DNA of 64,000 nt. Origin: Acetobacteraceae bacterium (GTDB lineage Bacteria; Pseudomonadota; Alphaproteobacteria; Acetobacterales; Acetobacteraceae). The notes beneath the pieces were generated by a model, which was not told the origin of the DNA, did no database searches, and worked only from the letters and a program-made list of their open reading frames with translations. Location: positions 1 to 64,000 of the forward strand of contig SHWL01000004.1 of assembly GCA_009693865.1 (NCBI GenBank), given 5' to 3'. The number at the start of each line of letters is the position of its first letter. Positions within the stretch are counted from its first letter, which is position 1. Both the position numbers and the translations under genes were made by a program. Positions 1 to 6,162 of the stretch are shown here, piece after piece.

Positions 1-77
1 CGGGTCACCTGCTGGCGCTGTTCCGAGGTCAGGCTCCGGACCACTTCCAGCCACGCTTCGAATGCTTTGTTGTCCAT
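1..77 (-). CDS. Transposase N-terminus (IS1595-like), cut by window edge
   Basis: The first 25 codons are visible, starting MDNKAFEAWLEVVRSLTSEQ. A short helical start ending in an LT-x-EQR pattern is typical of the region just before the zinc ribbon in IS1595-family transposases. No catalytic residue is in the window, so the identification is provisional. The ATG at 75-77 lies inside the putative insertion sequence, about 35 bases from its terminal repeat. It would read away from the disrupted SIR2 partner gene. Confidence 0.4.
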   Translation of the reverse strand, partial: MDNKAFEAWLEVVRSLTSEQRQQVT

Positions 78-125
78 GGGTGTCGACCGCCGTTCCCAAG
101 CCGCCATTCGCGGTTAACACTTCCC
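1..125 (-). mobile_element. Left-border end of an IS1595-like insertion sequence
   Basis: Read on the minus strand, a motif GGGAAGTGTTAACCG at about 125-111 looks like the terminal inverted repeat of an IS1595-family element, followed 30-40 bases later by an ORF start. The adjacent outside 8 bases (126-133, AATAAATA) are AT-rich, as the 8-bp targets of this family usually are. The stop codon of the neighbouring 471-codon ORF lies inside this putative repeat. The rest of the element is outside the window, so neither the second end nor the target duplication can be checked. The family assignment rests on the repeat and on the N-terminal style of the ORF. Confidence 0.45.
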
Positions 126-1529
126 AATAAATAACGCAATGAGAGCCAATTTCTTCGATTCCGCGACGAGCTCACTATCGGGGACACCGGTAAGTTTTTC
201 TGCACCACCGTCAACGGCACCCGAACTGCTTTCGTGCCATACATGGAAACCGGCTTGCTCCGCTGGACGGAGCCTCCAAGTTGGCCAGCGCGTGCGGATT
301 TCGTTCAAAAGGTCAGAGGCGGACCCACCAATGGCAAGCCCGTCCCGCTCCATCTCAGCGAGAATGTCGAAGCGGCTCCGATCAATGGTTTGGTCAATCT
401 CAACGCCTTCGCGGAACCAGTCTCGCGGCGGGCCCTCGCAAAGCCGGCGCAGAATCGCTCGCTGCTTTTCTACAGCGAAATCTGGCCACCGTGTCCTAAT
501 GAGCCGGAATACCTCGACACTAGAGCTCGTGAGAAATAGCTCGCCTCTCGGCAATTCGATCAGCATGTCCGCAGCAACGTCGGAGCTAACAACCGGATCT
601 GCGCAAGCGAAGAGTACAAGCCGCCGCATCAAACGGAAATCAATGTGGCACCAGCGTCGAAGCAACGGGAGTGCCAATTGTGGCGACTTCCTTGCGAGCC
701 GCAGCCAAAGCTCGGCCATCACTCGCACAATCGCATGAAAACCGGAGCGATAGGTGTTTTGAACGTGGTGCGCAACAGACGGAACGTCGTGGTCTGTCGT
801 CCCGTTTCCCTTATTCCCTTCGACGCCAACATCGGCCGCATCGGCGAGGGCCGCTTCCAGTGCCGAGGTTAGCTTCGCAAGCAGACTGAGGTCCGTCTCC
901 GCGGTTGCATTTTTCGACCAGGCTTGCAGAAATTCAACGGTCGAGACGCCGTCCTGGACTTCGAAGTCAATCGACATGAGGTCCCAAGGGCGTTCATGCG
1001 GCGCGCGGACTGTGTCGTAGAAGGAAATGCGCTTACCCAACTTGAGTTTCGGTCGGAGAGTTTGGGCGATACGTTCGAGCAAGGCCGCAGAATGATCACC
1101 ACGTAAGACTAGCGGTTCGAGCTCAAACCAGTCATCCCGTAAAAGTCTCGTCTGGGCCTCTCTTATATGTCGAATGATGAGCTGCCAGCATTTCGCCAGG
1201 ACTGGCGGGAGATTTTCTACCTCTCGATTAAGTCGAAATTCAAGGAAGTTCGCTGTTTCAGGAGAGAAGAAACCGATGTTTGCAACAACATCTCTTACAG
1301 CGTCCTCGTCTGAGAAATTGCGCTCGATCCAGCCAATGATCTGGTTATCGCCTTGGATCAGCTTCATCTCCGAAAGCACGGGAAGCCATGCTAACGAGGG
1401 GTTGATTGTAGCAAGTGTGGCAGCGAGGTCTCCCTCCGACAAGAACAGTCGCAACTGCTCCCGCTCGAAGTCTGAAGCGTCGGTTGGGGTCTTCTTACGT
1501 TCAGTTTTCGGGTCTTGTTGATCGGTCAT
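114..1529 (-). pseudogene. SIR2-associated helical protein, 3' end probably cut off by an IS
   Basis: A 471-codon ORF begins inside the stop of the SIR2-domain gene (ATGA overlap, 1526-1529), so the two are translationally coupled. I do not recognise a named family. The protein looks mostly helical, with many leucine, arginine and tryptophan residues and WxR repeats such as IRTRWPDFAV and IRTRWPTWRL, and it has no signal peptide or membrane segment. Its last residues (IGKC) and the TAA stop fall inside the terminal repeat of the IS1595-like element, so the original protein was probably longer. A large helical partner or C-terminal region is common beside SIR2 NADases in anti-phage systems. 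A role in sensing or regulation is inference. Confidence 0.6.
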
Positions 1530-2506
1530 GGCTCACTTCTGCCACTTGCATTGCCGGTTAATATGGCCTGAATGCGCGCTTTCCGATAGCCAGCCGGATC
1601 CATTGCATATCGCGCCCACTCGGTTAGCGTGCCGTAAATCGCGTCGTAATCCAAAAACTCGATTGGTTTGATCCCTTTAGCCTTCCAGAGGGAGGCGGAA
1701 TCGATTGTGACTTTCTCGATGGCGTAAATGTCCTTCAGGTCTCGGAAGCGATCGCGGTCGGCATCAAGCGTTTCCAAGAGCAGACGCATCGCCGCGTCCT
1801 CCGCCGCGTACCCCACCAGTACGAGCGTACCCAAACGCATGCGATCTTCGACGTATTGAGATGCCCACCCATCACGTAAATAGGCATCGCCAAAATCCGC
1901 ACTTGTCAGAACCAAGTCGCTCGGCGGCAGTTCAAGTGCTATGTCGGCGATTCTTCCATGAAGATGCAGAACGCCGAAATCACGATCGGCACCTGGTTTC
2001 GGAATGGATTTGCCAGCATGACTCGGGACGCCAACGAGGCCGCCCGCAGCCGCTGCGCGCTCGAAAAGCGTGTCGAAATTTGTCGTTAGCAATCTCGGAC
2101 GGCCCTCGGCATCGCGGGAAAGCTGGAGGAGAGCGAGATGGTCAGGCAGCGCGCAGGAAGGTGCTGCGAGAAGATCAGAGACGGCGTTGCGGACCCGTGA
2201 CGCCGTCCTGGGTAAGCGCGTCCGCTTTTCTAGAGAACGAAGCGCCCGGTCAAATTCGCGGGCGGCCATTGCTTTTCGTTCGGCAGGTTCGTCACCCCAC
2301 GATTCACCGAGGTAATCATAGACTCGTTCGGTAAGTGACTCGAACGAAGGTAAGCCGATGCGGAACGATACCCCGGCGCCGCAGAGAAATGTCACACTTC
2401 CGTCGACCACGGCGCGGATGAGGTCATCCGGAATATCTGCGCCTTTTTCCAGAAATCTCACTGGCCTCCTCCGGGCGGCCCTGTTGTACTTCGGGGACAG
2501 GCCCAT
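1526..2506 (-). CDS. SIR2-domain protein, predicted NAD+ hydrolase of a defence module
   Basis: A SIR2-fold protein of about 326 residues. Visible motifs are the nucleotide-binding GAGVS (residues 43-47), TTNFD (141-145), which carries the conserved Asn, and HLHG (181-184), which carries the catalytic His. These residues suggest an active enzyme. The sequence resembles the SIR2 domains of prokaryotic anti-phage effectors that destroy NAD+ (for example Thoeris ThsA, DSR proteins and SIR2-HerA) more than the protein deacylase sirtuins, because no zinc-binding Cys quartet is seen. I chose the ATG at 2506; the ORF track extends 11 codons upstream to a TTG. The downstream partner overlaps by 4 bases. 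Confidence 0.75.
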   Translation of the reverse strand: MGLSPKYNRAARRRPVRFLEKGADIPDDLIRAVVDGSVTFLCGAGVSFRIGLPSFESLTERVYDYLGESWGDEPAERKAMAAREFDRALRSLEKRTRLPRTASRVRNAVSDLLAAPSCALPDHLALLQLSRDAEGRPRLLTTNFDTLFERAAAAGGLVGVPSHAGKSIPKPGADRDFGVLHLHGRIADIALELPPSDLVLTSADFGDAYLRDGWASQYVEDRMRLGTLVLVGYAAEDAAMRLLLETLDADRDRFRDLKDIYAIEKVTIDSASLWKAKGIKPIEFLDYDAIYGTLTEWARYAMDPAGYRKARIQAILTGNASGRSEP

Positions 2507-2547
2507 CGTCTGTGTAGTGGGGACCTTCCCAAAACGCAATCATATCG

Positions 2548-2892
2548 ATGCGCTGCTTGGGCGATGATCGGCGCGTCCCGCTACGTGCGCTCAAGTGCAC
2601 ACAAACTGACCCGCACCGCACCCGGCCTCAGGTCGTCACCTCACGCGTTACTGCGGGCTTTTCAGATGTTCGGTATGGTGCCTATGGAGGGCCGTCTTCA
2701 CCTGATCGACGGGCCATCGAGGAATACGCGGCAGACCCAATGGCTCACGCGAACAACGTGGCAAAACCGGTGGGATCGTCGTCCAGCAGGATGCGGGCCG
2801 GCGACTACCGTGTGATTCTTGCCGAAACCGAGGCCGACCTGCTGGTCGTTCGAGTTGGGCCGCGCGGGGGCATTTATGGCGAAGGGACGTAA
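2548..2892 (+). pseudogene. RelE/ParE-family toxin, N-terminal region probably frameshifted
   Basis: The last 60 or so codons match the end of RelE/ParE toxins: an IEEYAADP helix, then MRAGDYRVILAETEADLLVVRVGPR, which corresponds to the usual R-x-G-D-x-R-V-I beta strands. The upstream part in this frame (QTDPHRTRPQVV) does not look like the usual N-terminus. A more convincing start (ALLRAFQM, as in ALKALRRM) lies in another frame just upstream, so a frameshift near 2690 is likely. The Xre-type antitoxin begins 3 bases after the stop. The coordinates are those of the open frame, not of a proven gene. Confidence 0.5.
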
Positions 2893-2895
2893 ACC

Positions 2896-3288
2896 ATGAC
2901 CATCCAGACCACGATCTCGCCCGACGGACAGCGTCTGGTGACGATGACCACTGAAGAATACCAGGATCTGATCGACGCACGCGACGCCGAGGCCGCCATG
3001 CGAGCCGTCGCGGCCGGCACACTGCAAACGCTGTCCGGCGACGACGTCGACGCCTACCTTGCGGCCGCCACATCGCTGGCTTTTTGGCGCAGGCATCGCG
3101 GGTTCACGCAAGCGGACATGGCCCGGGAGATCGGTGTCTCTCAACCCTATCTGGCCCAGTTGGAAAACGGCCAAAGAGTAGGCTCGGTTTCAGTTTATCA
3201 ACGGCTGGCCAGGCGGTTGGGTTTAAGCGTGGACGAGTTGCTGCCCGATCAGCCGCCCATGAAGGCAACGCCTTCGCAACCGCGTTGA
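2896..3288 (+). CDS. Xre-family antitoxin of a RelE-type toxin-antitoxin pair
   Basis: A 130-residue protein. Residues 1-60 form a charged N-terminal part (TTEEYQDLIDARDAE) like that of HTH antitoxins that bind their toxin. Residues about 62-118 form a cro/C1-type helix-turn-helix (WRRHRGFTQADMAREIGVSQPYLAQLENGQR). It begins 3 bases after the RelE-like ORF, the toxin-first order common in HigBA/RelE-Xre pairs. It probably neutralises the toxin and represses its own operon. If the upstream toxin is dead, this is an orphan antitoxin. Confidence 0.8.
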   Translation: MTIQTTISPDGQRLVTMTTEEYQDLIDARDAEAAMRAVAAGTLQTLSGDDVDAYLAAATSLAFWRRHRGFTQADMAREIGVSQPYLAQLENGQRVGSVSVYQRLARRLGLSVDELLPDQPPMKATPSQPR

Positions 3289-3479
3289 TCCGGCGCCCGA
3301 CACCTCCGCACACGGCCGACCCGCCGATCGTGTGAAAGCACGACCAAAGATCAACAGATTGGACGGGTTCAGGCGCCGCGGATTCTGATCCCACGACGGG
3401 CACGGCGGCCACCCAGCCATTCCGCCACCTCTCGCACCGTGCCAGGCTGCCTCCCTCACAACCCGAAAGTCCCTCCCGA

Positions 3480-4313
3480 ATGGATATCTCCGGCAAAACC
3501 GCCATCGTCACCGGCGCCGCGTCCGGCATTGGTCTCGGCATCGCGACCGCCCTCGCGGAGGCCGGCGCCAACGTGGTCATGGCCGACATCCAGAAGGATC
3601 TGGTCGAGCAAGCCGCCCATGGCCTATCCGGCACCAACAAGCGCGTCATGCCGGTGCGGATCGATGTGACCCAGGAACAATCCGTCCTCGACGCCCTGGC
3701 GGAGGCCGAGCGCAACTTCGGCAAACTTCATATCGCCTGCAACAACGCGGGCGTCCCGATGCACGGCACCAAACTGATCGACGTGCCGCCCGCCGACTGG
3801 GAATTCGTCATGGGTGTCAACATCTGGGGCATCATCCACGGCATCCGCCACTTCGTCCCCGCCATTCTCAAACACGGCGAGGAAGGGCACATCGTCAACA
3901 CCGCCTCGGTCGCCGGCTTCCAGAACCGCCGCGGCACCAATCAGGGGCCGTATTCCATGAGCAAATACGCCGCCCTTTCGCTGTCCGAGGCGCTGGAGCA
4001 GGAGTTGGAAGGCACCAACGTCGGCGTCTCGGTGCTATGCCCAGGACCGATCGCGACAAACATCGCGCGGGGGGCCAGGAACCGGCCGGACCACATGGGC
4101 GGGCCCCAGGTCAAAGCCAATGACGAGGCGATGCTGGCCGAGCGCCTCGCCACCATGGGTCTGGACCCGAAGAAGGTAGGGGAGCGCGTGGTCGACGCGA
4201 TCCGCACCAAGACCTTCTACGCCTTCGTCAGCGCCGTGCCCGCCGCGGTGATCAAGGCGCGCCACCGCCGCATCGAGGAAGCTCTCAACAGCCCGTGGGT
4301 CACCCATTACTGA
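3480..4313 (+). CDS. Short-chain dehydrogenase/reductase (classical SDR)
   Basis: A 277-residue Rossmann-fold oxidoreductase. The cofactor motif TGAASGIG is near residues 12-19, NNAG near 88-91, a catalytic Ser is in NTASVAG, and the YSMSK motif (Tyr-x-x-x-Lys) is near residue 160. The Asp at the end of beta-2 (MADIQ) favours NAD(H). The substrate cannot be told from sequence. It is followed on the same strand by an amidohydrolase and a second, atypical SDR, so the three may act in one catabolic pathway. No strong ribosome binding site precedes this ATG. Confidence 0.85.
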   Translation: MDISGKTAIVTGAASGIGLGIATALAEAGANVVMADIQKDLVEQAAHGLSGTNKRVMPVRIDVTQEQSVLDALAEAERNFGKLHIACNNAGVPMHGTKLIDVPPADWEFVMGVNIWGIIHGIRHFVPAILKHGEEGHIVNTASVAGFQNRRGTNQGPYSMSKYAALSLSEALEQELEGTNVGVSVLCPGPIATNIARGARNRPDHMGGPQVKANDEAMLAERLATMGLDPKKVGERVVDAIRTKTFYAFVSAVPAAVIKARHRRIEEALNSPWVTHY

Positions 4314-4428
4314 CTGCCGCCTCGACGCCCAGGCGGCCGCACCTGACAACCAGTGGCAATACCGCTAGTCTCGGGACCGAGCGTCCGGGCACTCGACCCG
4401 GTGCGAACGAATAAACGGAGAGGATGCG

Positions 4429-5256
4429 ATGCGGATCGTCGACGCCCAAATTCACACCTGGGGAACCGGCTTACCGAGTAACCTCTCGCATTGGCAGGTC
4501 ACGCACTTTACCCCCGAGGAAGCCATCGCCCTGATGGACGCGGGCGGCGTCGAGGCCGCCGTCATTCATCCGCCAGGCTGGGATCCGAATTCCACCGAAA
4601 TGGCGTTCAAGGCGGTGCGGGACTACCCGGGACGGTTCGCGATCATGGGCGCGCTGCCGCTCGACCGGCCGGAGTCGCGCGGACTGATCGCGGGTTGGAG
4701 AAAGCAACCGGGCATGCTTGGCCTGCGGTATGGGTTTCTGCACGATCCCATGCGCACGTGGCTGGCCGATGGCACGCTCGACTGGCTTTGGGCCGAGGCT
4801 GAAAAGGCCGGTGTTCCCATCGCCATGCTGGCGACCGACTCACTGACGGACATCGTCCGCATAGCCCAACGCCACCCCGCCCTTCGCCTCACCGTCGATC
4901 ACCTGGGCGGCCGCGGCGGCCTGACGACGTTGAAAGACGCCGCTGCCATGACCCACATCCCGGACCTTCTGGCGCTTGCGAAATTCCCCAATGTCGGCGT
5001 CAAAGCGACCGGCGCCCCAGGCTATTCCGCCGAGCCCTACCCGTTCCCGAAAATGCAGACGTATCTGCGGCAGATTTTCGACGCCTTCGGCCCAAACCGC
5101 GTATTCTGGGGCACTGATATTTCGAAAATGCCGTGTTCCTGGGGCCTGTGCGTCAAAATGTTCACCGAGGAACTGCCGTGGCTCAGCGAACAGGACAAGA
5201 GCCTCGTCATGGGCGATGCGCTGTGCGCCTGGTGGGGCTGGGACCGCGCTGCCTGA
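4429..5256 (+). CDS. Amidohydrolase-family metal-dependent hydrolase (amidohydrolase 2)
   Basis: A 275-residue TIM-barrel protein of the amidohydrolase-2 superfamily, whose members hydrolyse lactones and amides or decarboxylate aromatic acids. Visible elements are an N-terminal DAQIHTW (a variant of the D-x-H-x-H metal site), VDHLGG in the middle and the C-terminal FWGTDISKMP, whose Asp is a usual metal ligand. A good ribosome binding site (GGAGAGG) sits 7 bases before the ATG. The first metal motif has Gln in place of the first conserved position, so metal use may differ from the family norm. Its neighbours are two SDR genes. Confidence 0.8.
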   Translation: MRIVDAQIHTWGTGLPSNLSHWQVTHFTPEEAIALMDAGGVEAAVIHPPGWDPNSTEMAFKAVRDYPGRFAIMGALPLDRPESRGLIAGWRKQPGMLGLRYGFLHDPMRTWLADGTLDWLWAEAEKAGVPIAMLATDSLTDIVRIAQRHPALRLTVDHLGGRGGLTTLKDAAAMTHIPDLLALAKFPNVGVKATGAPGYSAEPYPFPKMQTYLRQIFDAFGPNRVFWGTDISKMPCSWGLCVKMFTEELPWLSEQDKSLVMGDALCAWWGWDRAA

Positions 5257-5301
5257 CATGATTTCCCCGAACGCGACGAACCTCAAAGGAAACCTTTCCA
5301 A

Positions 5302-6162
5302 ATGAGCCAAACTCACAATACGAATACCAAAGGTAAGCCGGTCGCCGTGGTCGTCGGCGCGACCTCCAAGTGGCAATCGGACGGGCGCAATACGTTGCTG
5401 GCGCACGGCAAGACGCTGGACGACAGCAATCTGCCGGTCGGTGCGCGTTGGGGTGTCGGCGGCGCCGTCGCCCAGAAGTTCGCGAAAGAGGGTTTCTTCG
5501 TCGTGCTGACAACCCGCGCCACGGCCAACGCGACGCCATTGGCGGAGGCCATCCGGCAACAGGGCGGTGACTGCTCGATCGTCGAGCTGGATCTTGTCTC
5601 GCAAGACTCCATCGCCGCGGCGTTCGCCACGATCCGTCGTGACGCCGGCGATCCGGAGGTTCTGGTCTACAACGCGGGATATCTGGAAGGCCGCGATCTG
5701 CCGCCGGAGAAAGAGTTGCTTGAACACATCACGGTGGAGATGCTCGATACCGCGATGCACATCGCCAGCCGCGGGCCGTTTCTCGTCGCCAAGGAAGTGT
5801 TGCCCGCCATGCGGAAGAAAGGCGAAGGATCGTTCTTCTTCTCCAATAACTCAAGTTCGCTGCGCGGCAAGAAGCGCATGACCGGACAGTCGCTCTACTA
5901 CCCCAGAGTCATGATGCGCACGCTGGCACAGGTGCTGACCGAGGAATACTCCGAGCACGGCGTGCACGTGGCCAACGTGGTGATCGACGGCACCATCGAC
6001 TCGCCTGGAACAAGGGCGATGCCAAGGTCCCAGAACCGGCCCGATCTCATCATCAATCCGGTCAAGATCGCCGAGGCGTTTTACTACCTGCACACCCAGG
6101 ACCGCTCGTGCTGGACGCACGAGCTGCAACTGACGCCATTTTCGACCAAGCCGAGTTTTTGA
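5302..6162 (+). CDS. Atypical SDR-fold protein with insertion near the cofactor loop
   Basis: A 286-residue protein with an SDR fold: VVVGATS at residues 15-21, LVYNAGYLEG near 115 and SFFFSNNSSSLRG near 168. Two things are unusual. About 25 extra residues (KWQSDGRNTLLAHGKTLDDS) sit between the first beta strand and the glycine-rich turn, which reads RWGVGGAVAQKF. The expected Tyr-x-x-x-Lys is replaced by YYPRVMMR, with no Lys at the right spacing. The C-terminus (DGTIDSPG) still follows the SDR pattern. It may be a divergent reductase or a binding protein. It is the third gene of a same-strand set. Confidence 0.7.
   Translation: MSQTHNTNTKGKPVAVVVGATSKWQSDGRNTLLAHGKTLDDSNLPVGARWGVGGAVAQKFAKEGFFVVLTTRATANATPLAEAIRQQGGDCSIVELDLVSQDSIAAAFATIRRDAGDPEVLVYNAGYLEGRDLPPEKELLEHITVEMLDTAMHIASRGPFLVAKEVLPAMRKKGEGSFFFSNNSSSLRGKKRMTGQSLYYPRVMMRTLAQVLTEEYSEHGVHVANVVIDGTIDSPGTRAMPRSQNRPDLIINPVKIAEAFYYLHTQDRSCWTHELQLTPFSTKPSF

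Follow-up and report, generated by a model that had tools for sequence, protein, structure and literature searches.

The first bases of a draft contig hold a gene for a SIR2 protein and, overlapping it, a second gene that is cut short by a mobile element, and the question raised by this locus is what the pair was before it was broken. The window, the whole stretch of 64,000 nucleotides that was analysed, comprises bases 1-64000 of its contig in a 4.48-Mb draft assembly of 209 contigs that is 81% complete. An earlier note on this DNA proposed an undescribed two-gene system, now broken. Based on comparison with relatives, the two genes are likely what is left of a Dsr1-like anti-phage receptor that is divided among three genes, the translationally coupled chains of which would assemble as an NADase complex. 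The features that bear on this reading are collected in Table 1.

The product of gene 1 matches the Pfam family SIR2_2 (PF13289) with an E-value of 9e-16. The GAGxS motif, the TTNFD motif and both histidines of H-x-HG are invariant across 11 aligned relatives, and because the protein possesses only two cysteines, it has no zinc ribbon. With these motifs, including the catalytic asparagine and histidine, the protein has the features of the SIR2 NADase effectors and is predicted to be an NADase-type effector, which agrees with the defence module proposed earlier from the same motifs. The start of the gene had been placed at the ATG at 2506, but the GTG at 2461 is preferred because the Shine-Dalgarno-like GGAGGAGG lies upstream of it and the homology of the relatives begins there.

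Table 1. Features of the SIR2 locus and of the element that interrupts it, in positions of the window.
Feature	Position	Strand	Remarks
Multi-copy insertion element end	1..147		Present in 12 copies, each at the end of a contig; family of the IS unconfirmed
Gene 2 ORF tail	114..149	-	Codon 461 is part native, part element; codons 462-472, the last of them the stop, come from the inserted element
Gene 2, native part	148..1529	-	Middle helical subunit, cut short after 460 codons; 575-578 aa in intact relatives
ATGA stop/start overlap of gene 1 and gene 2	1526..1529	-	Contains the start of gene 2
Gene 1, SIR2 NADase-type effector (predicted)	1526..2461	-	GTG start, 311 aa; corresponds to Dsr1 profile positions 2-294
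HLHG	1955..1966	-	H168, predicted counterpart of DSR2 H171 (DSR2 residue: PMC10973363)
TTNFD	2072..2086	-	N128, predicted counterpart of DSR2 N133 (DSR2 residue: PMC10973363)
GAGVS, NAD-binding motif	2366..2380	-	GAGxS invariant in 11 aligned relatives
Shine-Dalgarno-like GGAGGAGG	2465..2472	-	Just upstream of GTG 2461; read from the sequence

When both proteins were searched against defence-system profiles, both matched models of Dsr1, and they did so collinearly. The SIR2 protein aligns at the N-terminal end of the 1263-position NCBIfam model NF041818 with 208 bits. The product of gene 2, which had been called unfamiliar, alone aligns with positions 480-819 of the same model (2e-33, 115 bits) and alone matches the PADLOC Dsr1 model at 3e-25, so that it represents the middle part of Dsr1. 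Taken together, the SIR2 protein of the window and the middle and C-terminal proteins of a relative cover positions 2-294, 463-941 and 956-1261 of the profile; the stretch of about 294-463 is unmatched in these divergent relatives, and the pieces otherwise tile the model. This collinear homology to the N-terminal, middle and C-terminal parts places the proteins in a Dsr1-like superfamily. Because Pfam gives a match for SIR2 only, the pair could be read as a two-gene system with no relation to Dsr1 beyond a similar SIR2 domain. This reading is refuted by the partner's own matches to the Dsr1 models and by single-chain sisters that are 37-44% identical to the partner and carry it in frame with SIR2.

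The likeness to Dsr1 as modelled by NF041818 and PADLOC therefore consists of a SIR2 domain and a long helical region, collinear over 1263 positions. Nevertheless, Dsr1 is a single gene, and the equivalog cut-off of NF041818 is 1400 bits for the whole protein. Even the single-chain relatives reach only about 450-465 bits, and the split relatives, with three genes, also score well below the cut-off. Moreover, the parts are encoded by separate genes in the window and in five full relatives, and the window copy is also truncated. Because the scores lie far below the equivalog cut-off, the family is called Dsr1-like and not Dsr1 proper.

Outside the Dsr1 models, the partner has few matches. Pfam contains no family for the gene 2 product, nor for the intact middle and C-terminal proteins of the relatives, and a PDB sequence search with the gene 2 product returned nothing useful. 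AlphaFold models built from a four-row alignment were weak, with a pLDDT of 65 for the middle protein encoded by gene 2 and of 46 for the SIR2 protein. A Foldseek search with the gene 2 model (pLDDT 65) gave matches to HEAT, ARM and PPR helical repeats, none of them significant. Additionally, viral contigs and phages were searched, and no relative was found in them.

The ORF of gene 2 (114-1529, minus strand) is coupled to gene 1 by the ATGA described earlier, and its last 11 codons, stop included, are encoded by the inserted element. The stop codon had been assigned to a putative IS1595 terminal repeat. It does lie in the end of a repeated element, which covers bases 1-147; the name IS1595 was not confirmed. 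The 12 copies of this end in the draft genome are 98-100% identical over bases 1-147, and the flanks of the eight copies compared diverge immediately past base 147. A search of the draft assembly, 81% complete and with 12 element ends present, revealed no transposase of PF12762 (DDE_Tnp_IS1595). Similarly, no similar element DNA or peptide was found in the plasmids searched, and no second junction between element and target was found in a search that assumed a duplication of 8 bp and identical terminal letters.

In comparison with IS-free relatives, the window copy lacks the last 115 or so codons of gene 2, which ends at the element, and the whole of gene 3, as the truncation by an IS proposed earlier implied for the partner. 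Gene 3 was also sought across the rest of the source assembly, an incomplete draft that breaks at the element; it was not found, and the positive controls were detected. With half its sensor gone, the window copy is most likely inactive. The insertion is probably recent, because the window copy and its intact sister have branches of similar length (0.30 vs 0.35, the window copy not having the longer one) and gene 2 remains open up to the element, with no earlier stop.

On its other side, the SIR2 gene adjoins a gene for a Cro/HTH-type regulator (HTH_3) at 2896-3288 on the opposite strand. The ORF that precedes this regulator (region 2548-3288) appears to have a degraded start and ends in IEEYAADP..MRAGDYRVIL, which resembles the tail of RelE-type toxins; Pfam gave no match for it. 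Region 2548-3288 is likely a toxin-antitoxin remnant.

The intact form of the system is seen in relatives from other soil bacteria. The full order of SIR2, middle and C-terminal genes occurs in five genomes (L016, L017, L018, L067 and L068). Three of the five hold the nearest chromosomal relatives, from Tardiphaga sp. P9-11, Bradyrhizobium sp. DOA9 and Hyphomicrobium sp. CS1BSMeth3, which are 51-60% identical to the gene 2 product. In the three-gene relatives, the SIR2 protein has about 310-315 aa, the middle protein 575-578 aa and the C-terminal protein 318-320 aa, and gene 2 is uninterrupted by any element. In every IS-free relative examined, the partner is longer than in the window and lies beside the SIR2 gene, as the earlier note would have it, and the system is indeed broken by the element; the intact unit, however, consists of three genes instead of two. 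As judged from the profile alignments, the three-gene operons are collinear with the single Dsr1-like chain. In a further locus, L069, SIR2 is separate and the middle part continues into the C-terminal part up to the end of the contig.

Gene 1 and gene 2 are joined by ATGA in the window and in L016, L017, L067 and L068, by an 8-nt overlap in L018 and across a 37-nt gap in L069. Between genes 2 and 3, the overlap measures 8 nt in four genomes and 20 nt in L017. The first junction falls at residue 303-311 or thereabouts, which matches the border between SIR2 and CTD of DSR2. An ordinary pseudogene, in which a single-chain dsr1-like gene was broken by frameshifts or assembly errors as well as an IS, is very improbable. 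Broken members of the family do exist, since L074, which looks nearly identical to L079, has its SIR2 gene broken once more at a run of T, and L073 and L116 also look broken. However, the same two junctions are kept in five independent genomes, where the start codons overlap the stop codons and additional residues are encoded, and the substitution pattern indicates that all three genes are under strong purifying selection (pN 0.17-0.36 in each, with synonymous sites near or at saturation between members). The relatives therefore largely refute this explanation.

Hardly more probable is that programmed frameshifting or read-through at the gene overlaps yields a single protein from the three frames. 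In favour of this mechanism are the shortness of the overlaps and the existence of sisters with one chain. Against it, the first junction occurs in the three arrangements given above, with different frame relations, and inspection by eye revealed no slippery run at the junctions. In addition, gene 2 begins with about 14 N-terminal residues of its own that are absent from the fused relatives. Because the frame relation at the first junction varies, separate coupled chains fit better than programmed frameshifting.

The closest fused homologues are the single-chain 'SIR2 family protein' of R. leguminosarum pRle248d (WP_162676309.1) and those of Agrobacterium and of G951 (L071), with 56-58% identity in SIR2. 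In contrast to the separate genes of the window, these form one chain of 1179-1190 aa, so that the earlier observation of a helical region fused elsewhere and separate here holds. The plasmid-borne proteins of Rhizobium leguminosarum and Agrobacterium, with SIR2 and partner in one frame, are 56-57% identical to the window in SIR2 and 39-44% in the partner. When concatenated sequences were analyzed in a careful tree, the seven split forms formed one clade (support 92/93), in which the window copy is nearest to Tardiphaga. The clade of split forms and four single-chain relatives is fully supported, and further single-chain proteins lie outside it. The three-gene split clade was also recovered in a quick tree of 48 rows, with a support of 98. 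Since the split clade is surrounded by single-chain relatives, the split arose from a fused ancestor.

Two other plans of splitting were observed. A second clade of the quick tree contains nine two-gene forms, in which a SIR2 protein of about 400 aa is followed by a protein of about 860-930 aa, most of them joined by ATGA. Two-gene Dsr1-like loci are L076, L077, L078, L081, L082, L110-L113 and L130, and this form is also present on a complete plasmid of Bradyrhizobium japonicum, where the genes are annotated as 'SIR2 family protein' and 'hypothetical protein'. In the third plan, found in L079 (3597-7422) and also in L074 and L080, SIR2 and the middle part make up one protein of 876 aa and the C-terminal part another of 400 aa, with an 8-nt overlap. 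The split label requires three changes on the quick tree, so there were probably three independent splits. L073 (712 + 566 aa) was considered as another split and rejected; it is likely a broken single-chain gene, because its second ORF lacks an evident start where the break occurs.

Several loci of the family have mobile genes as neighbours. In L129 (5977-7797), on a plasmid of Enterobacter hormaechei, a 606-aa 'hypothetical protein' is a Dsr1-like middle fragment between two IS3-family elements and represents an IS-broken member. In L015, on a Rhizobium plasmid, a single-chain Dsr1-like gene is immediately preceded by a gene with a TIR domain and a hypothetical gene coupled to it (2535-6010). 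In L013 and L014, two different conjugative plasmids of Agrobacterium, the single-chain Dsr1-like gene directly follows repABC.

In KomC and ThsA, the SIR2 NADase is likewise encoded by its own gene in a multi-gene system, and its SIR2 sequence is detectably similar to the window protein. The partners in both systems are unrelated to the Dsr1-like partner, and nothing connects either system with the way in which a DSR protein became split. DSR2 of Bacillus subtilis (PDB 8k98 and others) also combines a SIR2 effector with a helical sensor, but in one chain; its sequence similarity is weak and within the SIR2 region (E 0.013), with the sensor part unmatched by sequence. The SIR2 domain of DSR2 (aa 1-303) is an NADase with the catalytic residues N133 and H171, and the isolated domain is inactive (PMC10973363). 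DSR2 is a tetramer, and binding of the phage tail tube protein to its helical part activates the SIR2 domains (PMC10973363). DSR1 is described as a single-gene system (PMC10973363).

By homology, we infer that the split system forms a complex, possesses NADase activity and defends against phages. Coupled translation would yield the three chains in matched amounts, and these would assemble into a complex equal to a single-chain DSR. The middle and C-terminal chains, from genes 2 and 3, would recognize a structural protein of the phage and activate the SIR2 subunit encoded by gene 1, which would then degrade NAD and halt the infection. The subunits could also function unlike DSR, with a free SIR2 protein activated in trans, or serve a cellular role other than phage defence, inasmuch as separate genes permit free subunits. 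This is unlikely, given the full collinearity with Dsr1, the conserved active-site motifs, the patchy distribution of the family and the mobile genes that adjoin several loci.

Overall, a split form of a Dsr1-like receptor that would act as a coupled NADase complex remains the best explanation of the locus. DSR1 and DSR2 have been described as single chains that both sense phage and destroy NAD. No description of a split, two-gene or three-gene DSR1 was found in the open-licence literature. There is perhaps an even chance that Dsr1-like receptors have split repeatedly, by three plans, into separable and possibly exchangeable effector and sensor subunits that are overlooked by one-chain detection models. 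Annotation with a single long model would miss the split forms or call them 'hypothetical protein'. Moreover, the split versions mark where nature tolerates cutting the chain, and they are ready-made constructs for testing how sensing reaches the SIR2 domain.
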